Below the pieces are notes generated by a model. It made no database searches. It was given only the letters and a program-made list of their open reading frames with translations, and was not told the DNA's origin. Of a stretch of DNA of 36,089 bases, positions 5,144-28,936 are shown piece by piece; within the stretch, counting starts at the first letter, position 1, and every line of letters begins with the position of its first letter. The position numbers and the translations under genes are program-made. The stretch comes from a virus, in the IMG/VR virus record IMGVR_UViG_3300031669_000115, positions 1 to 36,089 of that record; one strand, written 5' to 3'.

Positions 5144-6547
5144 ATGGCAGACGTAGACTACACGCCGCCGCCGACCGTCAAGGAGTTCATCAAGCACTAC
5201 TTGCCGGGACAGCTGTTCTACTCGTTCATTATCGGCCCGATCGGGAGTGGGAAAACAACAGGGTTGCTGTTCAAGATCGCATACCTTGCGCAACTGCAGG
5301 CACCCAGCCCTGTGGATGGGATACGGCGCACGCGGTTCGTCGTGGTGCGGAACACGTTCCCGCAGCTGAAGGATACGACGCTCTCTTCGTTCTTCACGTG
5401 GTTCAAGGATGGCGTGGCCGGCACATGGCGCGCGTCGGAGAACAAGTTCATCATGCGCTTCGGTGACTGCGAGGTGGAGATACTGTTTCGCGCACTGGAC
5501 ACTGCAGACGACGTGGCGCGCGTGCTGTCTCTTGAAGTGAGCTTCGCCGTGCTGGACGAGTTCGTGGAGTTGAACAAGGATGTCATCGAGGCGCTGTCTG
5601 CACGTTGCGGGCGCTTCCCGAGCAGGAAAGACGGCGGGTGCACTAACTGGGGGATGTTCGGGTCGAGCAACCCCGGACAGGAAGACTCGTACTGGTACAA
5701 GCTGCTGTTCGAGATGGCGCCGGACAACCTGAAACTGTTCGTGCAGCCATCGGGGTTCAGTGCGGATGCGGAGAATATCGAGAATTTGCCGGGTGGGAGA
5801 GGGTATTACACCGAAGGCATAAAAGGCAAGTCTGAGCCGTGGATAAAGCAGTTCGTGGAGGGAGTTTGGGGCTATTCGCACGCCGGCAAGCCAGTGTTCC
5901 CATACTTTAACAGAGATATTCACGTTGCGAAACAGTCTTTGCGTCCTAATCCATCGCTGCCCATCTTGGCGGGGTATGACCCGGGGTTGGCAGGCAGCGC
6001 GCTGGTGTTCGGGCAGATCGATCTGCACGGTCGCGTGACCATATTCGATGAAATTGTGCTGCAGAACGTGGGAACACATCGGATGATACCGGAATACCTC
6101 AAGCCGTTGCTCGCGCGCAAGTACAAAAACATGGAGTTCGGCATCATTCCAGATCCGGCAGCGAGCAGTCGCGCGCAGAGCACCGAAGACAGCGTGGTAA
6201 ACATACTGCGCAAGGCACAGCTAAAGGTGCACGAGCACACCGGGAACACACTGGCGCCAAGGTTGGAGTCTATGGAGTATTACTTGATGCGACTGACAGA
6301 TGTGGGGCCTGCCTTGCTGATTGACCCGGCATGTGTTAAGTTAATCCGCGCGCTGCAAGGTGGCTATCGGTACTCGGTCAACCAGAAGGGCGACAAGCAG
6401 GGTGAAGTACCTGAGAAAAACGAGCACAGCCACGTTGTTGACGCGGCGATGGAGCTGACGAAGCACTTCAAGAGCGGGGCGGACAAGGCTGGACGACGCG
6501 CTGCGGCGCGGTTCACACCGCCGAGATTCAATAACTCTTACGCATAG
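5144..6547 (+). CDS. Terminase large subunit
   Basis: The ATP-driven DNA packaging motor and nuclease, 467 aa, a normal length. The ATPase part shows Walker A GPIGSGKTT (residues 31-39), an adenine-binding-like RNTFPQLKDTT region (about 69-79), Walker B FAVLDE (134-139, with D138/E139) and a coupling motif GSSNPGQED. The nuclease part shows the acidic strands LAGYDPGLAG, GIIPDPAAS and a C-terminal HVVDAAMEL, which fit the RNase H-like metal site. ATG 5144 follows the preceding stop by one base with only a weak GGAA ribosome site, so coupling to the Gp49-like gene is likely. It acts at the portal vertex. Confidence 0.95.
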   Translation: MADVDYTPPPTVKEFIKHYLPGQLFYSFIIGPIGSGKTTGLLFKIAYLAQLQAPSPVDGIRRTRFVVVRNTFPQLKDTTLSSFFTWFKDGVAGTWRASENKFIMRFGDCEVEILFRALDTADDVARVLSLEVSFAVLDEFVELNKDVIEALSARCGRFPSRKDGGCTNWGMFGSSNPGQEDSYWYKLLFEMAPDNLKLFVQPSGFSADAENIENLPGGRGYYTEGIKGKSEPWIKQFVEGVWGYSHAGKPVFPYFNRDIHVAKQSLRPNPSLPILAGYDPGLAGSALVFGQIDLHGRVTIFDEIVLQNVGTHRMIPEYLKPLLARKYKNMEFGIIPDPAASSRAQSTEDSVVNILRKAQLKVHEHTGNTLAPRLESMEYYLMRLTDVGPALLIDPACVKLIRALQGGYRYSVNQKGDKQGEVPEKNEHSHVVDAAMELTKHFKSGADKAGRRAAARFTPPRFNNSYA

Positions 6548-6555
6548 GACTGAGC

Positions 6556-8757
6556 ATGACAACCTTGACGACACCACAGACGATGCCATCGACAGACCCA
6601 GCCATACTGCGCGATGCAGTTACCAAGGACCCGCAGAAACTGCGCGACTTGGGGATGCGGCTTGAGGCTAAATACATCCAGTACCGCAACGACCGCAGAC
6701 TGGCAGAACTCGACTGGCTTAAAAGTGCTCGTCAGTATCTCGGTATTTATGACCCTGATATCGAGTCGAAGCTGGGGCGGGACCGTTCGAAGGCATATCC
6801 GAAACTGACTCGCGTGAAGGTCGTAAGCATGGTGAGCCGGCTCATGAACCTGCTGTTTCCAACGTCCGAAAAGAACTGGACGCTGAAGCCGACGCCATAC
6901 CCCAACCTGCCAACACAGGACATGCAGAATATATTGGACCAGCTGGTGCAGCAGGCTCAGGGAGGACAGCTAGATGATGACATGATCGAGACGGCGATAC
7001 GAATGTTTGCGAAGGAGCGCGCGGCTAATCTGGAACTTGAGATTGAGGATCAGCTGGGCGAGCTGGGCGGCGACCGGATGCTGGACTACGTGGCCATGGT
7101 GCGCAAGGTCGTGTTCTCCGGCGTGATGTACGGCTGCGGCGTGCTGAAAGGCCCGTTCGTGCGCATGCAGAAACAACGCACATGGAAGCTGGTGCAAGCG
7201 CAACCAGAGTCAACCGCACCGCATCCGGAAACAGGACTTCCGGTAACTACTCCAGCACAGCCTGCGCAGTATGTTGCGGAAGAGAACGAAGTATATCGTC
7301 CACAGTTCGAGTTCGTGCCGTTGTGGCAGTATTACCCCGACATGGCGGCGAAGCGGTTTACGCAGATGGATGGGCAGTTCGAACGCCACATCATGTCGCG
7401 GCATCAAGTGCGCAAGCTGGCGGATCGGCCTGACTTCTTCAAGAAAGAAATCATGGACTATCTGGCGGCACATGCGGACGGTAACTACAAGCGCGAGACA
7501 TACGAGACGCAGATGAAGTCCATGGGCGTGCACAGTCAGGTAAACGACACGTCAGGGCGCAAGTATGAAGCGATCGAGTGGAACGGGTTCATGAGTGCCC
7601 ATGATCTGCAAGCAGCCGGCGTGACGATACCGCCCGGGATGGAAGGCGAAGAGATCGAGGCAGTCATCTGGGCGCTGGACAGCGTGATTATCAAGGCCGA
7701 CATCAACCCATGGGTCATGCTGGAAGGCGGCGAGAAAGTCCACATGTATCACCAGTTCATATTTGAAGAAGACGAGACGGCGCTGATGGGTAACGGACTG
7801 CCGAACATCATGCGCGACTCGCAGATGAGCGTGTGCGCGACAACGCGTATGTCGTTGGATAATGCAGGTGTGACGTGCGGCCCGATGCTGGAAGTCAACA
7901 CCGACTTGTTGCGGCCCGATCAGGACCTGTCATCGATATTCTCGTACAAGATATGGTATCGCGAAGGCATCGGCGCGGAGTCGCAGTATCCCGCAGTGCG
8001 CGAGATCAAGATGGACTCGCATCTGCCTGAGTTGAAGTCGCTGACGGACATGTTCCGTGAGTTCGCAGACATTGAGACGTTCATCAACCCGGCAACCGGC
8101 GGTGACATGCAGAAGGGACCAAGCGAGCCGTTCCGGACGGCCACAGGCGCGTCGATGCTGCGCGGCGATGCCGCCCTTCCGTTCAAGGATGTAGTGCGTA
8201 ATTTTGACATGTTCACTGAGTCTGTCATTTCGACGCTTGTGGCGTTCAATGCACAATACCCATCGCGGAACGACATACAGGGAGACTTTCAGGTTGAAGC
8301 GCGCGGCGCCACGTCGCTGATCGCCAAGGAGGTTCGCGGTATAACACTCGACACGCTGGCACAGACGTTGAAGCCGAACGAGCAGATATACATCGATGAC
8401 TACCAGTTCCTGAAGGAGCGGATGGCGTGTCGTGATGTGGACTTGACAGGTGTATTGTGCACCAAGGAAGAAGCTGTGACTAAGAAGCAAGCGTATGACC
8501 AAGATCAGCAAGCACAACAGCAACAACAGCAAGACCTGATGCGCGCCGAAGTGCGTAACCTGTTGGCGACGGCAACCAAATCACTCACGCAGTCGGACAA
8601 GAACTCCGCGAACGCGGAAGTGGCACAAGCGAACACCATACTGAAAGGACTCGAACATGGCCTCCAAACTGGACCAGACGCAGAAGGCGGATCTTCAGGC
8701 GCAGCTGTACAACAACCGGCAGCAGGTGCCAATTCCCCAGCTCAAGCAGCTTCTTGA
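6556..8757 (+). CDS. Portal protein
   Basis: Forms the dodecameric ring through which DNA enters and leaves the head. The 733-aa length is close to P22-type portals. Supporting patterns are the helical N-terminus (DWLKSARQYLG..YPKLTRVKVVSMVSRLMNLLFP), a mid-region strand-rich core, and a late helical stem with TGASMLRGDAALPFKDVVRNF. The end is a Gln-rich helix (residues about 650-660, DQQAQQQQQQD) and an Ala/Gly/Gln-rich tail. It follows the large terminase after 8 nt. The last 101 nt overlap the next gene in another frame, and the low-complexity tail is what lies over that gene. Confidence 0.92.
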   Translation: MTTLTTPQTMPSTDPAILRDAVTKDPQKLRDLGMRLEAKYIQYRNDRRLAELDWLKSARQYLGIYDPDIESKLGRDRSKAYPKLTRVKVVSMVSRLMNLLFPTSEKNWTLKPTPYPNLPTQDMQNILDQLVQQAQGGQLDDDMIETAIRMFAKERAANLELEIEDQLGELGGDRMLDYVAMVRKVVFSGVMYGCGVLKGPFVRMQKQRTWKLVQAQPESTAPHPETGLPVTTPAQPAQYVAEENEVYRPQFEFVPLWQYYPDMAAKRFTQMDGQFERHIMSRHQVRKLADRPDFFKKEIMDYLAAHADGNYKRETYETQMKSMGVHSQVNDTSGRKYEAIEWNGFMSAHDLQAAGVTIPPGMEGEEIEAVIWALDSVIIKADINPWVMLEGGEKVHMYHQFIFEEDETALMGNGLPNIMRDSQMSVCATTRMSLDNAGVTCGPMLEVNTDLLRPDQDLSSIFSYKIWYREGIGAESQYPAVREIKMDSHLPELKSLTDMFREFADIETFINPATGGDMQKGPSEPFRTATGASMLRGDAALPFKDVVRNFDMFTESVISTLVAFNAQYPSRNDIQGDFQVEARGATSLIAKEVRGITLDTLAQTLKPNEQIYIDDYQFLKERMACRDVDLTGVLCTKEEAVTKKQAYDQDQQAQQQQQQDLMRAEVRNLLATATKSLTQSDKNSANAEVAQANTILKGLEHGLQTGPDAEGGSSGAAVQQPAAGANSPAQAAS

Positions 8758-8896
8758 GAATGAGCTGGAGTTGGTAAACACACAGATTCTGGAAGCGGAA
8801 TCGACCGATAACTTGCGTATACTGCAAGGCGAGGGACGGCGCATAAAGAAGATATTGGCGATGTTCGACAAGCGACCCTTGACGGATATTAGCTGA
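8657..8896 (+). CDS. Small helical protein overlapping the portal gene
   Basis: ATG 8657 has AAGGA 6 nt upstream, and 101 nt of this gene lie inside the 3' end of the portal gene in a different frame. The 79-aa product is a charged helix or coiled coil (LDQTQKADLQAQLYNNRQQ, LKQLLENELELVNTQIL, GEGRRIKKILAMFD). Small helical proteins between portal and scaffold occur in related podophages; function is unknown. The non-overlapping 139 nt remain open and in good context, so I take it as real. Confidence 0.7.
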   Translation: MASKLDQTQKADLQAQLYNNRQQVPIPQLKQLLENELELVNTQILEAESTDNLRILQGEGRRIKKILAMFDKRPLTDIS

Positions 8897-8939: not shown

Positions 8940-9920
8940 ATGCCCACAGATCAAGATGTTGCGCTTTCATTTGATGATGCTTTCGACGCTGCGGTGAAGG
9001 AAGAGATTCCTCCTGCTCCTGCGAAGGCTGTAGAAGAACCGGCCGCTGAACCCGCTGCACCCGCTGTTGCCGCTGAACCAGCCGCCAAACCCGCCGTTCC
9101 TGCCGCTGAACCCGCTGCCGCTGCCGCACCTGCTGAACCCGCTGCCGCTGCCGCACCTGCTGAACCCGCTGCCCCCGCCGCTGCTGCCGCTGAACCCGCC
9201 GCTGCCGCTCCCGCTGAACCCGCCGCTGAGACACCAGAACAGACGATCGCGCGGCTGCAGAGCGAATTGACCGCAGCCAGAAAGCCTGCTCCTGCGGCTG
9301 CCCCAGCCCCTGCACCGGCGCCTGCTGCGCCCGCCAAGGCGCAACCGCTGTACACGGAAGCTGAGCAGCAAATCATCGACAGCTACACGAAAGACTGGCC
9401 AGACATCCACACAGCTGAATCGCTGATCAGGCGCAAGGAGTATGCAGACATCGTAGGTCACATTTTTAATGAGGTGAAAGCCTACTACGAGCCGATGCTC
9501 GAATTTTTTCAGACACAATCCACCGATTCGCACTATAGTGCGCTCGTAAGCGCACATCCGGATTATGACGCAATCGTAGATGGCGTTCAGGAATGGATCA
9601 GCAAACAACCCGCTGGGATGCGCGCAGCGTATTCCAACATTGCAGAAAATGGGGATACCCAAGATGTAATTTCTTTGGTATCCTTGTACAAACAGGCAAA
9701 TGGCATCGTGACAAAGCCGAAGGAAGAAGCCAGTAAGGGACTTCCAGCAGCACCGGCAGCAGGAGTCATTGTCAAGCCTGTAGCAGCCCCACAGATAACG
9801 CCAGAGGCCAAACAAGCGGCAGCGAAGTTACGTGTGGTGTCCGCAGAGAGAGCAGCACCCCCGGCAGCCGGCGCAGACACATTTGATGACGCCTTCGCCC
9901 AAGCAGTCGCAGAGGGATAA
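8940..9920 (+). CDS. Scaffold protein candidate
   Basis: Placed between portal and major capsid, where scaffold genes lie. The 326-aa protein has an Ala/Pro/Glu-rich disordered region (about residues 25-118), a short coiled coil (EQTIARLQSELTAARK), a globular-looking helical part (YTEAEQQIIDSYTKDWPDIHTAE... to VSLYKQAN, about 140-255) and another Ala/Pro-rich tail. The motif FDDAF-x2-AV-x-E occurs at both ends (residues 11-21 and 315-325). The Ala-Pro region contains a 27-bp tandem repeat (9105-9158). It could also be a minor head protein; composition, position and length favour scaffold. Confidence 0.7.
   Translation: MPTDQDVALSFDDAFDAAVKEEIPPAPAKAVEEPAAEPAAPAVAAEPAAKPAVPAAEPAAAAAPAEPAAAAAPAEPAAPAAAAAEPAAAAPAEPAAETPEQTIARLQSELTAARKPAPAAAPAPAPAPAAPAKAQPLYTEAEQQIIDSYTKDWPDIHTAESLIRRKEYADIVGHIFNEVKAYYEPMLEFFQTQSTDSHYSALVSAHPDYDAIVDGVQEWISKQPAGMRAAYSNIAENGDTQDVISLVSLYKQANGIVTKPKEEASKGLPAAPAAGVIVKPVAAPQITPEAKQAAAKLRVVSAERAAPPAAGADTFDDAFAQAVAEG
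9105..9158 (+). repeat. 27-bp tandem repeat in the scaffold candidate
   Basis: Two exact 27-bp units (9105-9131, 9132-9158) plus a partial third encode AEPAAAAAP-type sequence. The unit length is a multiple of three, so copy-number change would keep the reading frame and only alter the disordered spacer. Confidence 0.85.
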
Positions 9921-9955: not shown

Positions 9956-10987
9956 ATGACCGCTGTTGTTAATTATGGGGATATATCCCCCGCCGTTGCG
10001 GCTTACATGGTCAAGGACTTGCTGAAACGCGGCATTCCTTATCTGGTTCTGGAAAAGTTCGGGCAGACATACCCGATCCCTTCCAACAGCACCAAAGTCG
10101 CAAAATTCCGCCGCTACTTCCTGTCCGGTTCGACCGGCTCTGCCAGCGATGGCACCGGCAACTTCTTCGTGCCTCTGGCCACTACGCCTTTGGTCGAAGG
10201 TGTGACTCCGGCGGGCAAGAATCTGTCCAAGGTTGACTACACCGTGACCTTGCAGCAATACGGCGATTTCACCACAATCACTGACGTGGTTCTGGATACC
10301 CATACCGATCCTGTGCTGCAGCAATGCACAGAGATTCTGGGCGAGCAGGCCGCACAGACCGTGGAAACCATCCGCTACAACGTGCTGAAGGCCGGGACCA
10401 ACGTGTTCTTCGCCAACGGCACCGCGCGCAGTTCGGTGAACACTGTAATCACTCGTGATCTGCAGCGGAAGATCACCACAGCACTGACACGCCAGAACGC
10501 CAAGCCGATCACTCAGATCGTCAAGTCCACACCGGACTTCCGCACTGAGCCGGTGGAAGCTGCATTCATCGGCCTCGTGCACCCCGATCTGGAGTCCGAT
10601 ATCCGGAACATGACTGGCTTCATCCCCACCAAGCAGTATGGTACGGTGACACCGTTCGAAAACGAGATCGGCTCCGTCGAGCGCGTGCGCTACCTGACTT
10701 CCACCATCTTCGCTCCGTTCGCGGACGCAGGCGGTGCAGCAGGTGCGATGCGTACCACTTCCGGCACTTCTGCGGACGTGTACCCAGTGCTGTTCATCGC
10801 ACGTGACGCATACGGGATCGTTCCGCTGAAGGGCAAGGACGCACTGACCCCCATGGTCGTGAACCCGAAACCCGCCGCTGGCGACCCACTGGCGCAGCGT
10901 GGCACGGTCGGCTGGAAGACCATGACCGCAGCTGTGATTCTTCAAGACGCATGGCTGGTTCGCTTGGAGTGCTCGGCAACCGCCTAA
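9956..10987 (+). CDS. Major capsid protein, N4-gp56 family
   Basis: HK97-fold shell protein, 343 aa. I recognise the N4-gp56 pattern: an N-terminal YLVLEKFGQTYPIP segment, KFRRYFLSGSTG, LVEGVTPAGKNLSKVDYTVTLQQYGDFTTITDVV, then DTHTDPVLQQCTEILGEQAAQTVE (the long spine-like helix), GLVHPDLESDIRNMTGF and the late RDAYGIVPLKG segment. TAGGAG lies 7 nt before ATG 9956. It follows the scaffold candidate by 35 nt. A short GC hairpin follows it (10995-11010), which would make it the most abundant message end of the block. Confidence 0.95.
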   Translation: MTAVVNYGDISPAVAAYMVKDLLKRGIPYLVLEKFGQTYPIPSNSTKVAKFRRYFLSGSTGSASDGTGNFFVPLATTPLVEGVTPAGKNLSKVDYTVTLQQYGDFTTITDVVLDTHTDPVLQQCTEILGEQAAQTVETIRYNVLKAGTNVFFANGTARSSVNTVITRDLQRKITTALTRQNAKPITQIVKSTPDFRTEPVEAAFIGLVHPDLESDIRNMTGFIPTKQYGTVTPFENEIGSVERVRYLTSTIFAPFADAGGAAGAMRTTSGTSADVYPVLFIARDAYGIVPLKGKDALTPMVVNPKPAAGDPLAQRGTVGWKTMTAAVILQDAWLVRLECSATA

Positions 10988-11037: not shown

Positions 11038-11298
11038 ATGACTACACGTAATGTAGGTGGGTCCAAAACCGATATCGATCTGCAGGAGCTGCTTAAAGCA
11101 GCTGTCGCGGACGTTACCGATCTGCGGACAAAGTACACTGCGTTGCTGGCAGACGTAACAGCGATTCGCGCCTCGGTTGTAGGCGTGAATGCAAAGCTGG
11201 ATGCTGATGCCGGCGTTACGGACACCAACTATGCTGCCACGTGGAATCCGGCAGCATTGACGGCCAGCGCCGTGGCAACGCAAACTCTGATCAGCTAG
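11038..11298 (+). CDS. Small head-region protein with KLDADAGVTDTNY motif
   Basis: The 86-aa protein is helical at the start (LQELLKAAVADVTDLRTKYTALLADVTAIRASVVGVNA, likely a coiled coil, residues about 15-52), followed by KLDADAGVTDTNYAATWNP (53-71). The same motif occurs three times in the next gene. AAAGGAG precedes ATG 11038. Position right after the capsid gene suggests a head fibre, decoration protein or trimeric coiled-coil spike; I cannot tell which. Confidence 0.75.
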   Translation: MTTRNVGGSKTDIDLQELLKAAVADVTDLRTKYTALLADVTAIRASVVGVNAKLDADAGVTDTNYAATWNPAALTASAVATQTLIS

Positions 11299-11328: not shown

Positions 11329-12015
11329 ATGACACAAGTTATCAATTTGCAAACTCAAGCCGCCGGAGTGGTCAACCACACCGCGGGCCACATCGTTACG
11401 GACGCTGGCGCTGCCGCTGCCGCTTCGATTCAACTGGGCTTCGCACCGCGCGTTGTCCGCATTCACAACCTGACTGATCGTATCAGCGATGAGTGGTACG
11501 CCGGCATGACCGAAGACAGCATCTACGAGTCGATTATCGGCATTACCGCCAAGCTGGACGCGGACGCAGGTGTTACCGACACCAACTACACCGCGTTGTG
11601 GACGCCTACGGCTATTGCAGGCGTCAACGCAGCTGACAACGGTACACCGGCGAACGATCTAGGCATCATGCGGAAATCGATCATTGGTATTTTGCTGAAG
11701 CTGGACGCCGACGGCGGTGTTACCGACACCAACTACACCGCATTGTGGACTCCGGCCACTGCTTCTGTTTCTGCGATAATTGCATCTATCGCAGGAATGA
11801 ACGCCAAGTTAGACGCTGACGCCGGTGTTACCGACACCAACTACGCCGCAACATGGAATGCTCCAAACACCATGTCGCTGCATACTGTCGCTGCAGGCAC
11901 TCGTACCTACGAGCGCACCAACGGCATATCGGTCGATCCGGATGCCAAGACCGTCACGCTTACCGCGACGACTCTGGCAGCAAGCAAGCAGTTTTATTTC
12001 GAAGCGATCGGCTAA
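11329..12015 (+). CDS. Head decoration or head-fibre candidate with three repeats
   Basis: A 228-aa protein with a strand-rich N-terminus (RVVRIHNLTDRISDEWYAGM), three copies of the KLDADAGVTDTNY motif starting at residues 75, 124 and 160, each preceded by a helix-like IIGIxxK stretch, and a strand-rich C-terminus (TKTVTLTATTLAASKQFYFEAIG-like). The N- and C-terminal parts resemble small phage capsid decoration domains with the repeats inserted between. It follows the 86-aa sister gene by 30 nt with TAAGGAG upstream. A clear terminator follows at 12021-12044. The role is inferred from position. Confidence 0.7.
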   Translation: MTQVINLQTQAAGVVNHTAGHIVTDAGAAAAASIQLGFAPRVVRIHNLTDRISDEWYAGMTEDSIYESIIGITAKLDADAGVTDTNYTALWTPTAIAGVNAADNGTPANDLGIMRKSIIGILLKLDADGGVTDTNYTALWTPATASVSAIIASIAGMNAKLDADAGVTDTNYAATWNAPNTMSLHTVAAGTRTYERTNGISVDPDAKTVTLTATTLAASKQFYFEAIG

Positions 12016-15632: not shown

Positions 15633-17570
15633 ATGACTTGGTTCGTCGGACTAGGCTCGACAAACTCCGCGACTCGTAGCTCTGACGGGATTACGTGGGA
15701 TGCAGCAGGGGCGATAGGCACTGTCCCTGTAACCGTCAGAGCAATGACTCATGGGAATGGGGTGTTTGTTGCAGTTGGAGACAATACATCGGGGGGAGGT
15801 GGGTGCTTTACTTCCCCGGATGGCATCACGTGGACAAGTAGATCCATGCCTTACGCGGCAAACTGGCTCGATGTAACGTGGAACGGGTCTGTTTTTTGCG
15901 CTGTTGGAAATTCAGCGTCTGGTGGCGCAGCTACATCCCCTGACGGCATCACATGGACAGGCAGAGCACTCACAGCGAGAACGTGGAAGTGTATAGAGTG
16001 GAACGGGTCCGTATTTGCTGCTTTAGCAGACGGTACAATCGCAGGAGCGGCTACATCTCCTGACGGGATCACATGGACGAATCGTACCGTACCTAGCGCA
16101 CAGACATTTATGCGCATGGCGTGGAACGGCAGTGTGTTTTGTGCCACCTGTTCCTCAGTGAATAACGTAGTCACATCTCCTGACGGAATAACTTGGACAA
16201 ATCGTGCTATCGGGGCTATAGCCAACTGGACCGACATAATATGGAACGGGTCTGTTTTCTGCGTCATAACACAGACAGGAACTACTTGTAGCACGTCTCC
16301 TGATGGGACCACGTGGACCGCACGCACGAAGCAAGCAGGAACAGGCACACCGTATTGGGACAGTCTCGCGTGGAACGGGTCTGTTTTTTGTGCTGTAGCA
16401 TGGAACGCATCGGAAGCGCAGACATCTCCAGATGGAATCACGTGGACGCTTAGAACAACGACAGCCGCGCTCTACGCCGTGGCATCTGGCAACGCGGTAA
16501 ACACTGTAGGCAGTTCCTCTACTGCGGCTGTGGTTGGTGCAGGGTCAGTTCGGCAGGACACTGTCACATCTGGATTCTCGAATGCTGGAGTGGTTTCTGA
16601 CACGAATACTGTAACGGTATGGCATGCAGCGGCGCTCTCATCACTAGCCTCAGCATACGCGGCAGCACTGGTTGGGGTAGCGAGAAGTGTGACGGGGTAT
16701 TCCATAGCTACCGCAGCAGGTAGTGGCTGGGCTAGTAACAGCACATTGGCAGCAGCAAATTCAAGCGCTACGATTCTCGCAGAGTCTATAGCAAGAGTTT
16801 TTAATGGCTTTGTTACAGCGCAGTCTATGGCCGCAATTCTTACTGGATCTGTAACGGGAGTTTTTGCTAGTGGATACAGCGCGGGGATTTTTACTTCTTT
16901 AACGCAGGCCCCAACGATATTCTGGGATGTCGTGTACAGCACGGCGCAGACCAGTGCCGCGAGTGATGGGGTGCGCAGGACAGAGGCCACGGTGATTGGT
17001 ACGATATCGATCGGGGGAATTATTCTCGGACAGGCTAAATACATTGTGGCAGGCATGTCAGAGGCACAGGTAAGCAGCGGCATTCGATTCCTTCAGCAGT
17101 ACTGGGATGGATGGGTTTTCAACTTGAACACAAAGGCACCTTCATTCTACGAGAACTTTAAGTTCAATTCGTTTGCCAGAATTGGAGACAACTATTACGG
17201 GTGCTCGGATACAGGCATATACCTGCTCGGAGGGGATCTGGACGACACAATGCCAATAAATTCCACCATCACCACAGGCACGTCCGACCTGACTACAGAT
17301 AAGTATGATGGCGCCACGACGAAGACAGTACCCTATGTATATGTAGAGGCCAGCAGTCCAGAACCGATGCTGCTCACGTGCAATGTAGAAGGGCAAAGTT
17401 ACACATACAAGACGCGCGTTGTAAAGACGGCGATAGCCTCATCCCGTGCGGATGTTGGGAAGGGCCTGATCGGAACTTTTTGGCAGTTTGAAATAAAGAA
17501 CCAGAATGGCGTAGACTTCAACATTGAATCAATAATAGCAGCGCCTATCTCCAGATCGAGAAGGTTCTAG
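15633..17570 (+). CDS. Seven-repeat Asp-box propeller tail protein
   Basis: A 645-aa putative receptor-recognition protein. Residues 1 to about 285 contain seven SxDGxTW repeats (mostly SPDGITWT), alternating with WNGSVFCA strands about 40 residues apart, as expected for a seven-bladed Asp-box/BNR-like beta-propeller. A Ser/Ala-rich middle (about 290-420) looks fibrous. The last part (NLNTKAPSFYENFKFNSFARIGDNYYGC through SRSRRF) is a conserved phage tail domain, shared with the next gene. GAGGG precedes ATG 15633. No signal peptide is seen, consistent with a virion protein. It probably binds a surface glycan, but no sialidase-type catalytic set is evident. Confidence 0.75.
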   Translation: MTWFVGLGSTNSATRSSDGITWDAAGAIGTVPVTVRAMTHGNGVFVAVGDNTSGGGGCFTSPDGITWTSRSMPYAANWLDVTWNGSVFCAVGNSASGGAATSPDGITWTGRALTARTWKCIEWNGSVFAALADGTIAGAATSPDGITWTNRTVPSAQTFMRMAWNGSVFCATCSSVNNVVTSPDGITWTNRAIGAIANWTDIIWNGSVFCVITQTGTTCSTSPDGTTWTARTKQAGTGTPYWDSLAWNGSVFCAVAWNASEAQTSPDGITWTLRTTTAALYAVASGNAVNTVGSSSTAAVVGAGSVRQDTVTSGFSNAGVVSDTNTVTVWHAAALSSLASAYAAALVGVARSVTGYSIATAAGSGWASNSTLAAANSSATILAESIARVFNGFVTAQSMAAILTGSVTGVFASGYSAGIFTSLTQAPTIFWDVVYSTAQTSAASDGVRRTEATVIGTISIGGIILGQAKYIVAGMSEAQVSSGIRFLQQYWDGWVFNLNTKAPSFYENFKFNSFARIGDNYYGCSDTGIYLLGGDLDDTMPINSTITTGTSDLTTDKYDGATTKTVPYVYVEASSPEPMLLTCNVEGQSYTYKTRVVKTAIASSRADVGKGLIGTFWQFEIKNQNGVDFNIESIIAAPISRSRRF

Positions 17571-17589: not shown

Positions 17590-18363
17590 ATGGCTACGTA
17601 TGACTCCCCCGCCGCAAGCACCGCAGCCGCCAGTACACGATTGGTGGTAGGCATTTTTGCATCTGTGGTTGACACAGCCGCGCTGGTTAGCTTATGTGCG
17701 GCGCCTACAATCTTGTGGGAAGTCGTGTCCAGTACAACCACGATAACTGGTGCAGGGGCAGGCACTCGAAGAGTGGAAGCTGTGGTCTCAGCTACTGTGG
17801 TCTTGAACGGCACGATCATAGGGTCTGCGAGTTATCAAGTATCAGGACTTTCCACAACGCAAGTAATTTCAGGTATTCAATTCCTTCAAAAATATTGGGA
17901 TGGCTGGATTTTTAATTTGAACACCAAAGCACCCTCATTCTATGAGAACTTCAAATTCAACTCATTTGCCAGAATTGGAGACAACTATTACGGGTGCAAT
18001 GACGCAGGAATTTATCTGCTTGACGGCGATCTGGATGGCACACTACCAATAAACGCAGTGATCACCACAGGCACGTCCGATCTGTCTACAGATAAGTATG
18101 ATGGCGCCACAACAAAAACAGTGCCGTACGTATACATCACAGCTCGAAGTCCAGAGCCCATGCTGCTCACGTGCAACGTAGAAGGAAACTCTGGAACGTA
18201 TCAATTCCGCGCAGGCAAGACAGTGGTAGCCGCGTCTCGCGCAGATGTAGGAAAGGGCATAATTGGAACTTTCTGGCAGTTCGAACTGAAGAACCAGAAT
18301 GGAGCTGACTTTGACATTAAATCGCTGATAGCAGCGCCTGTATCGAGATCGAGAAGGTTCTAA
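17590..18363 (+). CDS. Tail protein, duplicate of the preceding C-terminal domain
   Basis: The 257-aa protein aligns almost end to end with the last third of the preceding 645-aa protein, including YWDGWIFNLNTKAPSF, FARIGDNYYGC, DLSTDKYDGATTKTVPYVY, SPEPMLLTCNVEG and GTFWQFELKNQNG, with both ending SRSRRF. It lacks the propeller and has only a short Ala/Ser/Thr-rich N-terminus. The two probably arose by tandem duplication and may assemble together, a short version capping or anchoring the long one. GAGGTG precedes ATG 17590. The next gene starts directly at its stop. Confidence 0.8.
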   Translation: MATYDSPAASTAAASTRLVVGIFASVVDTAALVSLCAAPTILWEVVSSTTTITGAGAGTRRVEAVVSATVVLNGTIIGSASYQVSGLSTTQVISGIQFLQKYWDGWIFNLNTKAPSFYENFKFNSFARIGDNYYGCNDAGIYLLDGDLDGTLPINAVITTGTSDLSTDKYDGATTKTVPYVYITARSPEPMLLTCNVEGNSGTYQFRAGKTVVAASRADVGKGIIGTFWQFELKNQNGADFDIKSLIAAPVSRSRRF

Positions 18364-19697: not shown

Positions 19698-20714
19698 ATG
19701 ACAACAACAGCAGATACACTCGCAGCACAGGCAGATAGTGCCTATACTGACGCATCGACTCGTGCGGATGCCGCGATATCACAAACAAGCACATCACTTA
19801 ACGAAGCGAAATCAGCGGCGAATGGTATATCAGTCATTGCAGTCAGTGGCGATATAAATCCTGCCAATGTAAATCCACAAGCAATAACGAAGCCAATTCT
19901 CCCTACAGGGGATTTTTCAGTTGATGTAAAAAATGCGTTTGATTACGCGTTCGGGTCATTCAATGAAGTCATTCAGCCTCAGATACTGAACTACATAAGC
20001 ACATTTTTTCCTGACATTTCTGCAGCGCTGAAATCCGATACAGATGCGTGGTTAGTCAACACAATGGAGAATGGACAGCTTGTCCCAATCGCCGTAGAAA
20101 ACGCACTGTGGAATCGCGCTAGGGACAGGGAAGAACAGTTATCGGCCACAACAGAGCAGCAGGTGATTGATGCGTCAGCCGCTCGTGGGTTCTCCATGCC
20201 ACCGGGGACGCTTAATCACACCATAAAGGCCACACAGGTGGAAACAACCTTGAAGCTGGCAAGTTTGAATCGTGAAATATCGATCAAGCACTTCGAGGTT
20301 GCCAATGAAAATACAAAGTTTGCTGTTGCAGAAGCTGTAAAAATGCGCGTTGGGTTTGTGACGGCATTGGGCGAGTTTATCCGTACCGCCGTGTTGCAGC
20401 CAAACAACGCAGTAAATTATGCAAAACTTATTTTAGAGTCCAAGACAGGACTTTACGATAGCGCTATTCGGTTGTACTCAGCGCAGATCAACGAAGAATC
20501 AGAGCGCACCAGAGTATTGCTGGAGAACAACGCGCAAGATTTGCGAGGAACGGAAATACTGTTTGGTAATTTTTACAAGGCGGCGGAGAACAATGTGCAT
20601 AAGGCTGAAATACAAGCGAAGGTTGCCGTAGCCGCCGCTGAGCAATTGGGCCGAGTTGCTGCTGCAGCTCTTACAACACGTAACAGCGTGGTCAGCGTAA
20701 GTGCCGCAGTTTAA
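19698..20714 (+). CDS. Helical virion/ejection protein candidate, 338 aa
   Basis: I recognise no family. The protein is largely helical with Ala/Asn/Glu-rich coiled-coil segments at both ends (about residues 1-45 and 195-325) and a middle with LPTGDFSVDVKNAFDYAFGSFNEVIQP. No signal peptide or clear membrane segment. It is first in a three-gene run ending with the 2253-aa protein, in the place where podophages encode internal core/ejection proteins, so a role like T7 gp14/gp15 is possible. ATG 19698 has GGGAG upstream; ATG 19693 is in another frame. Confidence 0.65.
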   Translation: MTTTADTLAAQADSAYTDASTRADAAISQTSTSLNEAKSAANGISVIAVSGDINPANVNPQAITKPILPTGDFSVDVKNAFDYAFGSFNEVIQPQILNYISTFFPDISAALKSDTDAWLVNTMENGQLVPIAVENALWNRARDREEQLSATTEQQVIDASAARGFSMPPGTLNHTIKATQVETTLKLASLNREISIKHFEVANENTKFAVAEAVKMRVGFVTALGEFIRTAVLQPNNAVNYAKLILESKTGLYDSAIRLYSAQINEESERTRVLLENNAQDLRGTEILFGNFYKAAENNVHKAEIQAKVAVAAAEQLGRVAAAALTTRNSVVSVSAAV

Positions 20715-22174: not shown

Positions 22175-25100
22175 ATGGCACAACCTTTCGACCCAGCTTC
22201 ATTTAAGCCGGATTTTGATCCAGAGTCGTTTACGCCTGATGCGCCTGTACAAACCAGCGCGCTCGGGGAGATCGGTCGCGGCCTGAAGCGGGGTTTAGTT
22301 GTCGGTGGCGAACAAGCCGCAGGAAAGGCATTGCAGATACTGTCTCCGGATGACAGTGCAATAAACGCTGCCGGAACGCAGATGGTGCAGAACGCGACCA
22401 ATCGCGGGGAAACTCCTGATTACACGATGCACCCTGAACAGCATGGCGCGATTGTCAATGCACTGGCGGGTGGTGCTGAAGGACTCGGTTCATTCTTGCC
22501 TACCATGGCAGTTGGTGCTGTGCAGCCCGAGATCGGCCTTGGCATGGCAGCAACGCAAATGGCGACAACTGGCGCGCAGGACACCTACGAGCGGGTCCTG
22601 AAGGCGACTGGCGACCCAGACCAAGCGAAAACCGCAGCTTTAGAGTCAGGCGCGATACAGGGTGTTGGTGGGCTAGTCGGTGGAGCACTCGTCGGGCGCG
22701 CGGCGCGCGGACTGGTTACAGGCGCTCTGTCCAAGGCTGCACCGGGTATTGAAGGTGCGATGGCGGAAGCCACGAGCAAGAACGTGTTCAAACCGGCACT
22801 GGCCAATATGGCCGAGAACGCCGTCGCGCTACCATTGACCGTCGCTGCCATGACTGCGGGGTCTGCTGCGGTTGAGAAGGCACACGGCGTAAACGTAGAC
22901 CCGATCGATGCTGCATTAGGCAGCATCCCATCTTCTTTGGGAATGGCGACGCTGCTTGGGCCGCTTTCTGTGTTCGGAGCTTACCGTGCGGCTCAGGCTC
23001 GCGATGTGGCAGCCAAGACGATCACACAACCTGTTGCCCCGGGCGCAGATGGCACTGTTGACCCAAATGCACTGACTCGCAGAAATGTTGAGGCAAGAAA
23101 GCTCTACGGCACGATCAAAGGCGCAGACCCACAGGCCGCGCAGTCATGGCTTGACTCAGCTACTCAGGCTATCGAGGCCAATCAGCCGGTGGACATCAGC
23201 AGTGCGTTCCCAGAAGCACACGCAAAGATGTTGGTAGATCAGGCGGAGGCAGCGCGGCAGCAGGTCGAACAGGCGATTCCGGCACTTCCGCACCTGCAGA
23301 ACGATACGATGTTCGTATTTCCAGATGGATCGACCGGAACACAATCGCAGATAGATGAGCATATAAACACACTGCCGGAAAGTGAGCGCGTCAGTGCTAG
23401 AGCAAATATGATGTACGGTGCGCGCGAAGCTGCGCCTGAAGACCAGACTGCACAACCAGCTGTGCCAGAAGCGCCCCCCGCAACCGCGCCCGTATCAGCG
23501 ACGCCAGAAGACACGCTGAAGGCCCAGCTGCAAGAATTTGGAGCTACGACCGTTCCTGCAGCACGTATCGCCAAACTGGCAGAAATGACGCCGGAAGAAC
23601 AGATTGCGCATCTTGACAACATGGACTTGGAAAATAGCAAGGCTGCATACGCTGAGGGACTGGCCAAGTATCACGATAGCTTGAAGCAAGGCACGCAGCT
23701 TTCAGTTCTGAACAAGCCACTACATGAAATGACTGCAGATGAGCTGGATGCAGCGTTACCAGCAGCACAAGCCAAGGATGCTCGTTTGGAGCAAGAAGCA
23801 GTTACAGCTGAGTATGGCCCGGAAGAAGCACAAAAATTTGCAGCCTTGGGAAGACGCGCGAAGGATAAGTGGTGGAACGCAAATGCGACAGAGGCTATGG
23901 ACAAACACGCATCCATGCACAGCGACAATGCTGAAAATGTAGGCAGCTACCGTGATGCGCAACATGATTTCGATCCAGAATCTGCAGCACACCTTGGGCG
24001 CAGTATTGCGATGAAGATAAAGGATTCTGACAGTCCTAATTTTGTACACTCTCCAGAATGGGTGACACTCAAGAATGCTTTTGAGTTCGCAGCCAAACAA
24101 GGCTGGTCATTTGACGATGTGATGAAAGGTGCCGGAGAAAGAGCGCATGAATGGGCTGGAAGCGACGCTGCGGAGCTATTCCCTAGACTGGAGAAATACT
24201 TTAACGGGGAAAAGAAAAATCAGAGGGCATTAAAAGGAGAATCAAATGAAGTCACCGCCAATGAAAATCAGGGGGCCGGAGCCGAACGCCCAGCGCCTGA
24301 AGCTGCCGTCAATGCCGGCGGCGCTGAACAGCCCGTTGAGAGGCCTACTGCCCAGCCTGTCGAAAAGGCCGCCGAAGCAGCCGCCAAACCAGTAGAACCT
24401 GAGATCGTATCTGTAAAGCAGATTAGAGGCACAGGAGAAACGCACGTCACAACCAGTACGGGTGACACCATCAAAATTTACAAGGACGACGCTACAGGTT
24501 CGATGGGACTCCCCGGGTGGCATTGGGACGAAAGTGGGCACAACAACCCCGGGCCAAGTCAAAGGGGCCATGTTACGACGTATTTGGCGGACACAAAAAG
24601 TGAAGCACTGAAAGAGTTAAAGGCTAGATTGCCTAGAATTCTAAAGCTCAAAGGAGTGGAACCTGTCGAAAAGGCCGCCGAAGCAGCCGCCAAACCAGTA
24701 GAACGGCGTAACCAAACGGAGCGTTCCGCGAAGTATGGTCTTGCAAAATCGCTTGCAGAGCAGGACGGAAAGATCAGTATTGGTCGTCTGCAGCGCGCGC
24801 ACTCACAGATCGGGGAGAGTGAAGCAGCGCGCCTTATAGAACAACTTAAGCAGGATGGTGTCATCGACACCGCTGTTGTAAAAGGCACGCACGCACTCTT
24901 GGAGAAGCCTGCGGAACAGGAAGTCGCACCTGAAGTTGCAAAGGCAGAACCTGTGGCCGCTAAGGCAGAACCGGAAGAAGGTATCGCACCTGAAACCGCC
25001 AAAGAAGCGTGGGACCAGATGCGCCACGACGAGTATGGCGATGCCAAGGAAATCCCGCGCTATGAGGATCTGAACGAAGCGCATCGCGATCTCTGGGACC

Positions 25101-28100
25101 AAGGCCGGCAGAGCGGCGCTGATTTCGAGGAACTTGCCAGTCGCCATCGCAACAACCAGATCGCAGAGCGCACGTCGCTGCGGATCAAGCCCGAACACAT
25201 CAAGGACGAAGACTGGGATGTGAACTTCAACGAGCGCGCCGATGGTGTTGGTGCGGCAGATGCGGCCAAGACTCAGGGGCTGTTGAAGGACGCCAAGACA
25301 CTTGGCGATGCACTGAGGATCGTGCGCGACAGTCTCGACCCGAAACTGAAGCGACTTGCAGACAAGCTGCTCTCAGATCCCAAAGCAGTTGCGGGTAAGT
25401 TCGAACTGAGTGGTCGGTCAAAGACGAATATCAACGGCAACGCTGTACTCGGAGAACACTATCGCGGGGATGTGGTATTGCATAATGGCGCGGGTGTAAC
25501 AACGCTGCTGCACGAGGCTGTCCACGCCAAGACTGCATGGGGACTTCGCAACGATGAGGTATTCAGGAATTCCGTCAAGGAACTGTATGATGCAGCGAAA
25601 GCTGCGTTTCCTAATCTCCAGTCGATATACGCCTTCAAGAATCTGGACGAGTTTCTGGCCATGGCCAATACCGATCCGAAGACTCAAGAAGCACTAGACA
25701 CTATCCCTTCTATCGGAGGCAAGTCGTTGTTCGGGCGACTGATCGATGCAGTGCGTTCGTTCTTGGGGATGCAGCCGGGACAGACTTCGCTACTGCGGGA
25801 TGTAATGAAGGTTACAGAACAAGCACCAGCGCCGCGCTACGATATCAGCCATGCGGCTGAATTGGGCGTGCAGCACTCTGAAACAACTCAGCAGGCACTC
25901 GATGCACCGAAGCAAATTCTCGACCGCGTTATTTCGGGAGTTAAAGATCAGGTTAAAAACCTGAGAACAATGCCTTCCGGCGTGCTCAAACAACTAGCCT
26001 ATGCACACACCATCAACCATCTGGCAGAAGCGTACAAATCGATAGCTCCGGGCATCGGCAAGTTCAAGGGTGCACTGGACCAAATACAAGGCACGCACAA
26101 GGCTCTGGAGATCGAGTCGGCGCTGGTCGGGCGCCAAGGCAACGAGTGGGAAGCACAGATAAAGCGCAAGCCGACCGGCTCGCAGGATGTCATGAAGCAG
26201 TCGCAACTCAGCCAAAGAGCCACACTGGACGCGATCGACCCACGCTTTGATCCGAGTAAGCCACTGGAAGGGCAGAAGTGGTACAAGGACCTTGCACGTC
26301 ATCACGCTAACGCAAAAGACTTGGCCATGGCACAGGAGTTCATGAAGGCATCGTACAAGGCAGAGAACGAGTGGGTTGCCAAGATGACACCTGCAGAACT
26401 TACTGAGTACAGGCAGAACCGCGCGAACTTGGAGAAGCTGTGGGATGAGAACGGCAGGATGCGCGCTCAGATCAAGAGCGGCACTGGTGGTAAGCCAGAG
26501 ACTATCAGTGGACAGGATGTGTTCCACCGTGAAGAGTTTCGCATGAAGCAGCTTGGACTTCGCTACAACGATGAGTCAGTCAAGACATGGTACGAGAACT
26601 TCCACGATGAAGCGTTCGGTCCGAAGGAGACTGATGTAGCCAAGATGCGCGAGCAGATCGCAGCATCCAAGAGCAAGTTCCCCGCTGTAGCCAAGGCAGA
26701 GTTGCAGCGGCTCGGAGAGTCACGCACCAACATTATGGCCTCGCCGTACTTCCACATGTTCCGGCCCGGAGATTTCTACGTCAAGTACAAGGGCAAGGAC
26801 GGCAAGACATACCTTAACTCGTTTGAGTCAGAGATGGCCGCACGGCGCGCATGGGGGGATTTAGCTGCGCAAGGCAAGGCAGCTGAAGACGGCTTCAAGG
26901 GTGGTCGCTGGGCGGACATGATGCGCGACAACGACGTGGCCAGTGCGAGCGCACTGCGAGACTTCATTAACCGTGCGACGGAGCGCGCTGAAGCCATATA
27001 CGGAGTGGGCACGCCAGAAGCCAAGTCGGAAGTCGAGAACATGCGCAACATCCTCGAACAGACAGTGCTCTCGTCGCTGACCCGAGGTAATAACCGCACG
27101 GCTTCTGCAAAACGCGTTGGCTATGAGGGCGCACTACCAGACATGCGCAGGAGCTTCGCCACACGGACGATGTACGCACACAACGCGATCGCTGTTCTGA
27201 CACACACTCGGGAAGCAAGTCAGGCGTTGCAGGATCTTGCGCAGCAAGCTAGAGACGCCGGCACGACAACGGAAGGACACCCTGCCAATCCAGAACTGCA
27301 ATCTAAGTTGCAGGTGCTGAGCGATGAGATGCGCACGAGGCAGCAACTATTTACCAAGCCGGTGAACGCCCCACTGCTGGATGCGTTGACGAACCTGAAC
27401 TACAACTTCTATTTGGGGCTGAGTCCTGCGTACTTGATCCGCAACGCGACACAGCCATGGGTGTACACGCTTCCGATGTTGGGGGGACGCTACGGCTTCA
27501 TGGACTCGGCACGCGCACTGACGCGCCACTCTGGCACGGCGATCAAGATTCTTGGTCACGTGATGAAGCAGGATTTCTTCAACCCGATTTTTGACATGTC
27601 AGGGGAGGCTATGGCCTCGCTTGGTTTGCGGCCTGACCAGATGAAGACACTTCAAGCACTGGCCGCTTCCGGTAAAGCCGATGCAACATTCGCCTATGAT
27701 ACAGGCGCTATCGCCCGAGGGCAGACAGGCAAATTAAGCCAGATGCAGAAAAAGTTTGGTGTGTTCGCCCACTATTCTGAAGTGCTGAACCGGATCGCCA
27801 CAGCTCTCGCTGCGCATGATCTTGAATTCGCACGCTCTGGCAGTCAGGAGTTGGCACAAGCGCAGGCGTTCAAGATGGTGGACGATACGCAGATGGACTA
27901 CTCGCCTACAAACAAGGCACGGATGTTGGGCAAGCACGGCGTCATGGGCAAGGCCACTCCCCTGCTGACCGCGTTCCAGCAGTTCAACTTTCAGGTTCTG
28001 GAGCTGATGTCGAGAATGACGGCCAACGCTGTCGGAAAGAACGGACCGGAAGAAGCGAACATCGCACGCAAACAAATTGCAGGGATGATGGGAACAACAG

Positions 28101-28936
28101 CCATCTTCGCCGGCACACTGGGCCTGCCCTTCGCCAACGTCATCGCAGCAGCGTGGGATAAACTTACAGGTGATGACAACAACCCTAGCGACATCAAATC
28201 CGAATACCGCACGTGGCTGTCGGAGACATTCGGACCGGAACTGGGAGAAGTTATCGCCCGGGGCGTCCCGCGCGCAATGAATTTTGACATGTCCTCCGGT
28301 GTTGGCATGCAGGATGTTCTGCCATTTTCACAGTTCTTGGCCGATAGGCGCGCATGGAAGGATCGTCTCGACACCTTGGTTGTTGGCGGGGCGGGGCCGG
28401 CTTATGGCATGCTGCAGAGTATGGCGCGCGGCGCTGATCAGATCAGCAGCGGAAATGTCTGGAAAGGTGTTGAGTCTGTCCTGCCGCACGCGCTTACCGG
28501 GGTTGCCAAGGCAGCTGAGATGCAGCAGAAGGGGCAGTTCACTGACTCCAAGGGTAACGTGCTGCCGATACAGGCAACCGGCTGGGATGAGCTGGTGCAG
28601 TCGTTTGGCTTGACCCCTGCGCACAAAGCAGAGATTCAGGAACAGTCGTTTGCCTACAAGCAACATCAGGCACTACTGAACACAACACGCGGCAAGTTGA
28701 TGCAGGACGCTCAGGAGGCTCGCGGAACGGCAGACATGCCTGCAGCTATTCAAAAGATACAAGCGTGGAACCAAGCGCATCCTGACATGCCTGTACGCAA
28801 CCTGAACAGCGCCGCCCGGGCACAGGCGCAGAAGTATCAAATGGCTAAACAGTCAGGCACAGGTATGCTAGTATCTCGGCGTGCGCTGCTTGGATTGAAC
28901 GGATATAGCTTCGCCAACGAAGGCGAACTTCAATAA
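22175..28936 (+). CDS. Giant polyvalent/ejection protein, 2253 aa
   Basis: A multidomain protein of the large polyvalent phage type, probably packaged and injected with the DNA. Seen: Gly/Ala-rich hydrophobic helices at about 85-275 that could insert in membranes; a helical domain near 540-670; a small domain at about 742-829 bracketed by a perfect 43-bp repeat; an FtsK-gamma-like winged helix at about 850-910; a zinc-peptidase motif H1113-E-A-V-H1117 with a candidate third ligand E1159 (NLDEFLA); long helical segments; and a C-terminal part with NFYLGLSPAYLIRNATQ, TPLLTAFQQFNFQ and a hydrophobic stretch near 1970. Only 2 nt follow the previous stop. No frameshift seen across 6.7 kb. Confidence 0.85.
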   Translation: MAQPFDPASFKPDFDPESFTPDAPVQTSALGEIGRGLKRGLVVGGEQAAGKALQILSPDDSAINAAGTQMVQNATNRGETPDYTMHPEQHGAIVNALAGGAEGLGSFLPTMAVGAVQPEIGLGMAATQMATTGAQDTYERVLKATGDPDQAKTAALESGAIQGVGGLVGGALVGRAARGLVTGALSKAAPGIEGAMAEATSKNVFKPALANMAENAVALPLTVAAMTAGSAAVEKAHGVNVDPIDAALGSIPSSLGMATLLGPLSVFGAYRAAQARDVAAKTITQPVAPGADGTVDPNALTRRNVEARKLYGTIKGADPQAAQSWLDSATQAIEANQPVDISSAFPEAHAKMLVDQAEAARQQVEQAIPALPHLQNDTMFVFPDGSTGTQSQIDEHINTLPESERVSARANMMYGAREAAPEDQTAQPAVPEAPPATAPVSATPEDTLKAQLQEFGATTVPAARIAKLAEMTPEEQIAHLDNMDLENSKAAYAEGLAKYHDSLKQGTQLSVLNKPLHEMTADELDAALPAAQAKDARLEQEAVTAEYGPEEAQKFAALGRRAKDKWWNANATEAMDKHASMHSDNAENVGSYRDAQHDFDPESAAHLGRSIAMKIKDSDSPNFVHSPEWVTLKNAFEFAAKQGWSFDDVMKGAGERAHEWAGSDAAELFPRLEKYFNGEKKNQRALKGESNEVTANENQGAGAERPAPEAAVNAGGAEQPVERPTAQPVEKAAEAAAKPVEPEIVSVKQIRGTGETHVTTSTGDTIKIYKDDATGSMGLPGWHWDESGHNNPGPSQRGHVTTYLADTKSEALKELKARLPRILKLKGVEPVEKAAEAAAKPVERRNQTERSAKYGLAKSLAEQDGKISIGRLQRAHSQIGESEAARLIEQLKQDGVIDTAVVKGTHALLEKPAEQEVAPEVAKAEPVAAKAEPEEGIAPETAKEAWDQMRHDEYGDAKEIPRYEDLNEAHRDLWDQGRQSGADFEELASRHRNNQIAERTSLRIKPEHIKDEDWDVNFNERADGVGAADAAKTQGLLKDAKTLGDALRIVRDSLDPKLKRLADKLLSDPKAVAGKFELSGRSKTNINGNAVLGEHYRGDVVLHNGAGVTTLLHEAVHAKTAWGLRNDEVFRNSVKELYDAAKAAFPNLQSIYAFKNLDEFLAMANTDPKTQEALDTIPSIGGKSLFGRLIDAVRSFLGMQPGQTSLLRDVMKVTEQAPAPRYDISHAAELGVQHSETTQQALDAPKQILDRVISGVKDQVKNLRTMPSGVLKQLAYAHTINHLAEAYKSIAPGIGKFKGALDQIQGTHKALEIESALVGRQGNEWEAQIKRKPTGSQDVMKQSQLSQRATLDAIDPRFDPSKPLEGQKWYKDLARHHANAKDLAMAQEFMKASYKAENEWVAKMTPAELTEYRQNRANLEKLWDENGRMRAQIKSGTGGKPETISGQDVFHREEFRMKQLGLRYNDESVKTWYENFHDEAFGPKETDVAKMREQIAASKSKFPAVAKAELQRLGESRTNIMASPYFHMFRPGDFYVKYKGKDGKTYLNSFESEMAARRAWGDLAAQGKAAEDGFKGGRWADMMRDNDVASASALRDFINRATERAEAIYGVGTPEAKSEVENMRNILEQTVLSSLTRGNNRTASAKRVGYEGALPDMRRSFATRTMYAHNAIAVLTHTREASQALQDLAQQARDAGTTTEGHPANPELQSKLQVLSDEMRTRQQLFTKPVNAPLLDALTNLNYNFYLGLSPAYLIRNATQPWVYTLPMLGGRYGFMDSARALTRHSGTAIKILGHVMKQDFFNPIFDMSGEAMASLGLRPDQMKTLQALAASGKADATFAYDTGAIARGQTGKLSQMQKKFGVFAHYSEVLNRIATALAAHDLEFARSGSQELAQAQAFKMVDDTQMDYSPTNKARMLGKHGVMGKATPLLTAFQQFNFQVLELMSRMTANAVGKNGPEEANIARKQIAGMMGTTAIFAGTLGLPFANVIAAAWDKLTGDDNNPSDIKSEYRTWLSETFGPELGEVIARGVPRAMNFDMSSGVGMQDVLPFSQFLADRRAWKDRLDTLVVGGAGPAYGMLQSMARGADQISSGNVWKGVESVLPHALTGVAKAAEMQQKGQFTDSKGNVLPIQATGWDELVQSFGLTPAHKAEIQEQSFAYKQHQALLNTTRGKLMQDAQEARGTADMPAAIQKIQAWNQAHPDMPVRNLNSAARAQAQKYQMAKQSGTGMLVSRRALLGLNGYSFANEGELQ
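24356..24704 (+). repeat. 43-bp perfect direct repeat within the giant gene
   Basis: The same 43 bases occur at 24356-24398 and 24662-24704, exactly 306 bp (102 codons) apart and in frame, encoding PVEKAAEAAAKPVE twice. Between them lies a small domain (VSVKQIRGTGETHV...GHVTTYLADTKSEALKELKARL). Perfect identity, codon for codon, indicates a recent duplication or an insertion mediated by the repeat. Confidence 0.95.

Follow-up and report, generated by a model that had tools for sequence, protein, structure and literature searches.

The 326-residue protein encoded between the portal and the major capsid protein (MCP) genes of a bacterial virus carries similar short peptides at its two ends. We read it as the scaffold of an N4-type phage, in which two end helices on flexible spacers would dock on the MCP and each chain would hold two MCP subunits; we put the probability of this reading at about two in three. 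Computation shows twin ends that are conserved and co-vary within proteins, no signal of a duplication, and a divergence of the ends that is linked to the MCP. The term window denotes the whole stretch of DNA that was analysed (36,089 nucleotides of IMG/VR record IMGVR_UViG_3300031669_000115).

The scaffold candidate and its locus

The gene order in the window is terminase-portal-scaffold-MCP, with the following features:
5144-6547, plus strand: large terminase (phrog_2, E 6.1e-28)
6556-8757, plus strand: portal (phrog_332, E 2.9e-24; the family is described as head-tail adaptor, kind connector)
8657-8896, plus strand: 79-residue ORF of unassigned role in the portal/scaffold interval
8940-9920, plus strand: scaffolding-protein candidate, 326 residues, an ORF with ATG start in the portal/MCP gap
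8970-9002, plus strand: N-end motif FDDAFDAAVKE, residues 11-21, in predicted helix 11-22
9006-9233, plus strand: N-side Ala/Pro/Glu spacer, residues 23-98, low confidence, no predicted helix
9234-9701, plus strand: helical core, residues 99-254, of which 140-254 are predicted with confidence; homologues among the F116-type and Y3-type cores
9702-9881, plus strand: C-side Ala/Pro spacer, residues 255-314, mostly low confidence, predicted helix 288-296
9882-9914, plus strand: C-end motif FDDAFAQAVAE, residues 315-325, predicted helix 315-325
9956-10987, plus strand: MCP of the N4-gp56 family (TIGR04387, E 6.3e-96; phrog_1357)

The MCP scores 321.5 bits against TIGR04387 (cut-off 60), which places the window in the N4-gp56 capsid system, and the structure nearest to its model is the N4 capsid 9e99 (Z 23.3, rmsd 4.4, 303 residues aligned). 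Relatives of the scaffold candidate occupy the equivalent position in other loci, and some of these loci also have a short ORF at the portal/scaffold interval. In L040, L044, L047, L056, L088 and L176 the gap between scaffold and MCP holds extra ORFs, some of them homing-endonuclease-like. The window protein itself matched no PHROG, Pfam or NCBIfam family at E ≤ 0.01. Among 39 aligned proteins of its kind, 11 match phrog_13678 (no function given), one matches phrog_1018 (head scaffolding, E 0.0075) and one phrog_1052 (head assembly, E 0.0016); the relative in StenR_269 is annotated as 'scaffolding protein'. The product of ORF 8940-9920 probably helps this virus to build its head.

The initial annotation had described the motif FDDAF-x2-AV-x-E at residues 11-21 and 315-325, and both segments fit it. 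It had let the feature begin at 8970, which is the first phenylalanine of the N-end motif; the start codon lies at 8940. Its Ala/Pro spacers around a helical core are borne out by a TRF repeat array at 9038-9229, coinciding with the N-side spacer, and by the predicted model. In this AlphaFold2 model (39 sequences; mean pLDDT 75, pTM 0.42) helices are predicted at residues 11-22 and 99-114, five within 140-254, and at 288-296 and 315-325, with spacers of low confidence. By prediction the protein is helical with flexible ends, as is typical of the scaffold class. A PDB fold search with the model returned 27 matches, none at E ≤ 0.001, and the single match of the scaffold profile to solved structures, a ribosomal protein at E 0.6, was taken as chance.

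The two 11-mers share six identical residues other than Ala and Pro, a number that none of 300 shuffles of the end segments attained. When a profile of the clade ends (including L007, a near-identical copy of the window) was run over all six frames of the window, the two motif copies ranked as the top two (29.0 and 23.3), ahead of a segment that overlaps the N copy out of register (16.7), one on the minus strand (16.1) and one in another ORF (13.1). The last is a weak in-frame match, KNAFDYAFGSFN at 19929-19964 in ORF 19698-20714; a further one (12.4) lies at 28133 in a 2253-residue protein. As candidates for other virion proteins that carry the motif as cargo, the window thus offers in-frame hits well below the scores of the two ends. 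This large protein (22175-28936) is perhaps internal or ejected, has FDPASF and FDPESF near its N-terminus and gave no Pfam match with its first 667 residues. Elsewhere in the window, the product of 29719-31197 is a collagen-like tail protein (PF01391, E 9e-28), and its gene contains repeats of 129 bp (30056-30376, 90% matching). The adjacent genes 11038-11298 and 11329-12015, after the MCP, have repeat units of type NAKLDADAGVTDTNYAATW in common, and the neighbouring proteins of 15633-17570 and 17590-18363 have a common C-terminal domain, which looks like a duplication.

Matching ends in relatives of the window protein

Eighty loci with related MCPs were fetched, the ORF upstream of the MCP was taken and clustering was done at 70% identity; 61 of the 80 loci gave an intact scaffold ORF. 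The pattern [FY]xxx[FW] is present in both the first 80 and the last 30 residues of all 39 window-clade clusters, that of the window included, and at both ends of all 61 intact clade proteins, against a background of 38 per 7969 positions elsewhere in these proteins; a stricter version is kept in 38 of the 39 clusters. The claim that homologs would conserve both motifs therefore holds throughout the clade, and conservation of just one of them was not found. Counting FxxxF was rejected as a sole test because it is too loose: 25 of 39 MCPs hold the pattern in their first 80 residues, probably as one homologous site, although none of the 39 has it in the last 30.

The data do not support a recent origin of the likeness by duplication of DNA or by gene conversion between the ends. 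Codons of identical end residues agree in 216 of 473 cases, compared to 208.5 expected from each gene's own usage (71 proteins), and the two 36-base motif copies of the window are identical at 23 of 36 bases. Codon agreement at the chance rate indicates that the end match is maintained at the protein level.

The letters of the motif differ in more distant relatives. The ends read DAAALFTTLAGQ and DPVQLFTHLASQ in phage Y3, EEFDDAWEESKK and EEFDEIWEESKK in L175, AEMRKEVQAEIF and AELRESVRQEVF in L181, and LLAHYTDMVRQG and QLAHYTQMIKSG in L341, a Chitinimonas genome. Thus the exact FDDAF wording of the initial annotation is local, while the mutual match of N and C end is conserved widely with a word that differs by clade. 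This match was quantified by a pair test, in which the first 80 residues are searched for their best 12-residue match to the last 45, and the score is compared between true pairs and pairs of ends from different proteins. Fourteen loci with cut, missing or other ORFs were set aside, of which L040, L044 and L047 were restored (L040 as a cluster); for L176 the second ORF was used because the first is homing-endonuclease-like. In 93 clusters true pairs have a mean score of 28.5 versus 22.2, a difference reached in 0 of 50,000 permutations.

Could composition or low complexity alone make the ends look alike? Ala, Pro and acidic residues abound in these scaffold candidates, and some tests do respond to this. 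The last 28 residues find their best match within the first 70 in 62 of 93 clusters (25.8 expected), and reversed C ends still do so in 41 of 93, so composition inflates this position test. In the pair test with plain BLOSUM62 (90 clusters, z 11.9) five of six controls are not null, with z between 2.5 and 4.3 (scaffold residues 81-160, 3.2; middle, 3.2; -130 to -50, 4.3; scaffold N end against MCP C end, 2.5; MCP N end against scaffold C end, 2.6; MCP against itself, 0.5). However, when Ala/Pro matches are zeroed the signal survives (21.42 versus 16.31, z 11.0, 0 of 20,000; limited to the 90 clusters, out of 93, whose MCP is complete), also when permutation is confined to MCP groups (z 8.9), and the corresponding controls fall to z 0.9, 0.7, 2.9, -0.5, 0.1 and 0.8. 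Shuffling each protein's own ends, which keeps composition, gives p ≤ 0.05 in 47 and p ≤ 0.01 in 29 of the 93 scaffold clusters (46 and 30 in an earlier run), leaving about half (46 of 93) singly short of p ≤ 0.05. MCP controls (5 of 90 at p ≤ 0.05, none at p ≤ 0.01) and downstream ORFs (6 of 152 at p ≤ 0.05, none at p ≤ 0.01) stay at the chance rate.

The result was replicated with MCP relatives from genomes of named organisms, mostly bacteria. Sixty-two of 69 loci had an ORF, four were dropped as at least 70% alike to the first set, and 51 new clusters were left, whose counts retain at least L302 and L344, which look like unrelated genes. True pairs again score higher (23.39 versus 16.51, z 11.4, 0 of 20,000; control z 1.2), and own-end shuffles reach p ≤ 0.05 in 22 and p ≤ 0.01 in 13 of the 51. 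The zeroed scores, shuffles and control proteins rule out composition or Ala/Pro low complexity as the entire cause, and we regard it as a very improbable explanation of the likeness in general.

The likeness is not uniform. When similarities are averaged by group, a coarser comparison, the N end has its closest C end within its own group in five of eight groups (window clade, L159-175, Y3-like, F116-like and N4); this was not seen for L109-158, the ctsTn-like group and Sten/AD45. Twin ends are missing from the Bacillus, Paenibacillus and faecal-phage clusters (L090 Pony/Pascal, L093 API480, L094, L095) and from CRP-207.

The Y3-type and F116-type cores are homologous to the window core (hhalign probabilities 99.4% and 99.1%), and the core of USP_25 is identical to it at 46 of 115 positions (40%; BLASTP E 4e-17). 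In several of the aligned F116/USP_25-like members a TPEQ-like word lies close to each end; on a homologous core, both ends carry a word other than that of the window. USP_25 has DMTPEQ at both ends (DMTPEQLAQLLE and DMTPEQIEYYLN) and is alone among the seven F116-like members in reaching p ≤ 0.05 in the automatic test; the other six fall short. The F116/USP_25-like MCPs lie just under the N4-gp56 cut-off (58 and 53.5 versus 60 bits). Neither the MCP (E 0.5) nor the portal (E 0.88) of USP_25 has detectable BLASTP similarity to that of the window, and since USP_25 differs in both it cannot on its own pick the partner of the ends. LUZ24 gp63 (L351:14888-15880), an annotated scaffold considered as a possible third family, has ends that look alike by eye (EAAEAFGDLLGD and EAAAALFSSLDI; p 0.11), and its capsid protein matched no NCBIfam model at E ≤ 0.01. 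The ends of L357 are also similar by eye, those of L358 and L359 dissimilar.

The probable partner of the ends

The obvious reason why two ends stay alike while drifting is one shared binding site. Its likely owner was sought by partial rank correlation among 128 candidates, of which 101 had MCP and portal scores of at least 150 and 61 passed a motif filter. In these 61 genomes, similarity of the N end follows that of the MCP given portal and core (partial r 0.30, 0 of 300), and so does similarity of the C end (0.28, 0 of 300). The portal partials are negative (-0.18 for N, -0.11 for C), and the link to the core is weak (0.11 and 0.08; 13 and 27 of 300). With all 101 genomes, before the motif filter, the MCP gives 0.17 and 0.18 (1 and 0 of 300), and there is a correlation with the core as well (0.12 and 0.08; 0 and 5 of 300); the 22 named genomes taken by themselves give no significant MCP link (53 and 27 of 300). 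A first version with cruder gene picking (68 genomes) gave 0.34 for the MCP, -0.09 for the portal and -0.01 for the core. Note that MCP and portal similarities are collinear (rank r 0.74) and that portals were cut. The initial annotation had proposed end peptides that crosslink capsid or portal subunits. As the ends diverge with the MCP and not with the portal, the capsid alternative appears favoured and the portal alternative disfavoured. Tags that change together in this way across many related viruses suggest that both ends grip one shell protein.

A mixed arrangement, in which one end sits on the MCP and the other uses a site that mimics the capsid one on the portal or on an internal protein, and so builds the portal in, has a parallel in P22, where portal hooks are described that link portal and coat (available text of PMC12005531). 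Yet it is the MCP that the divergence of both ends tracks, with negative portal partials for each, and differing partners are unlikely to have kept the ends matched over so many words; we consider this arrangement unlikely. The ends might also pair with each other, so that chains network end to end while core or spacers bind the shell. Homotypic pairing would likewise select identical ends, and the ends are predicted helices. On the other hand, the 12-mers that match each other carry a net negative charge (mean -3.1 for N, -2.3 for C), which disfavours self-pairing, and pure self-pairing requires no link to the MCP, whereas the ends stay linked to the MCP once core and portal have been partialled out. 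Self-pairing is thus rather doubtful, although we rate it as the least improbable of the alternatives. Short terminal motifs can serve as release or degradation tags, or as a protease-recognition site, instead of docking peptides. However, no protease family was matched among the eight window proteins scanned, and tags read by a host protease are not expected to vary with the MCP; we give this explanation very little credence.

We therefore return to docking of both ends on the MCP. Each end would be a variant of a single short helix, acidic and aromatic, with its docking site on the MCP's inner face, and the long flexible spacers would tether both end helices to the helical core. In described scaffolds the contact is the N-arm helix of the MCP (available text of PMC6813328 and PMC12749128). 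Since the model of the window MCP has an N-terminal helix at residues 12-29, we infer docking of both ends there or nearby. A single chain could then hold two MCP subunits of the same or of neighbouring capsomers, and core oligomers would multiply this two-point holding. We infer that both ends can be bound at once, and that weak avidity would let the scaffold assemble the shell and then leave.

N4 gp57 as a probable scaffold, and known scaffolds

In coliphage N4, gp57 (L196:15084-16301) adjoins the MCP gp56 on its portal side, with a small gene, gp58, between gp57 and the portal gp59. Its annotation is 'tail length tape measure protein', and in the available text of PMC7650795 it figures among the core genes of the Schitoviridae, likewise as a tape measure. 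Its ends, FKMSDEEILNMP and LAMSDEDFMKLP, are alike (shuffle p 0.016; 0.023 in a second run). From 72 of 80 N4-type loci, 51 clusters from viral contigs were used. A regular expression for the gp57 word, composed after viewing the ends, hits both the first 45 and the last 40 residues in 47 of the 51 (0.03 expected per 40 residues). Own-end shuffles give p ≤ 0.05 in 41 and p ≤ 0.01 in 37 clusters, and the position test 45 of 51 versus 10.3 expected (reversed control, 20 of 51). Permutation within the gp57 set is not significant (1427 of 20,000) because the members share one word, and the census of both ends is the fitting test.

Like the window protein, gp57 has an N4-gp56 capsid neighbour, the equivalent gene place and twin ends, but its motif word differs and the two cores have no detectable homology (hhalign probability 0.3%), although a very remote relationship may exist. 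The twin-end design is therefore shared by two scaffold families. Gene place and twin ends suggest, on sequence grounds, that gp57 is the N4 scaffold. Among the 60 listed of 466 phage records with gp57 relatives, one has the annotation 'putative scaffold protein' and many are called tape measure, although the family is one of short-tailed phages. A term search in N4-like structure papers found no phage scaffold named in the text available: the paper on DEV goes no further than to mention a search for scaffolding-protein density, and the available part of PMC11654681 leaves scaffold, tape measure, procapsid and gp57 unmentioned. On balance we think it probable that the design is general: at least two N4-capsid scaffold families without a detectable common core would keep a duplicate docking peptide, rewritten at both ends as the capsid changes, so that the chain acts as a two-point staple, with N4 gp57 being the scaffold of N4.

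To the initial annotation such a design was not known from described scaffolds, which stands in part. The described scaffolds that were compared have one hook per chain (available text of PMC6813328 and PMC12005531). The twin-end test, with one protein each, gave p 0.25 for P22 gp8, 0.42 for T7 gp9, 0.99 for phi29 gp7 and 0.55 for 80alpha gp46; the ends of these four are dissimilar, whereas those of the window protein resemble each other. In the open PMC literature, titles and abstract starts among the matches listed revealed no matching end motifs in phage scaffolds; subscription papers and bioRxiv were outside this scope. The claim of novelty narrows with SPP1 gp11, which is called a 'double hook', albeit in the form of a dimer. 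It is described as bridging capsomers via the N-terminal helix and the spine helix of the MCP (available text of PMC6813328). Compared by description, SPP1 gp11 has one N-terminal hook per chain that is paired by dimerisation, while the window protein has a like peptide at both chain ends.

P22 gp8 resembles the window protein in being a separate scaffold gene between portal and coat. Its terminal coat-binding hook sits on a flexible loop (available text of PMC12005531), but this hook is single and C-terminal, with basic contact residues, and the window ends are acidic. A second likeness, as an analogy only, is offered by encapsulins. Some encapsulin cargo chains bear several targeting peptides. 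Like the window ends these peptides are short, terminal and on a disordered arm, and in the available text of PMC11202242 a cargo peptide docks between the N-terminal helix and the P-domain of the HK97-fold shell; unlike the window ends, they serve cargo loading instead of assembly and are mostly C-terminal.

The scaffold density that procapsid maps resolve tends to be weak (available text of PMC12749128). The finding bears on how non-rigid scaffolds space capsomers, since paired, co-varying end peptides point to the docking site on the MCP and predict valency within one chain. The matching-end rule may also offer a way to spot, from sequence alone, scaffolds without detectable homology, and it suggests gp57, a Schitoviridae core gene, as such a scaffold.
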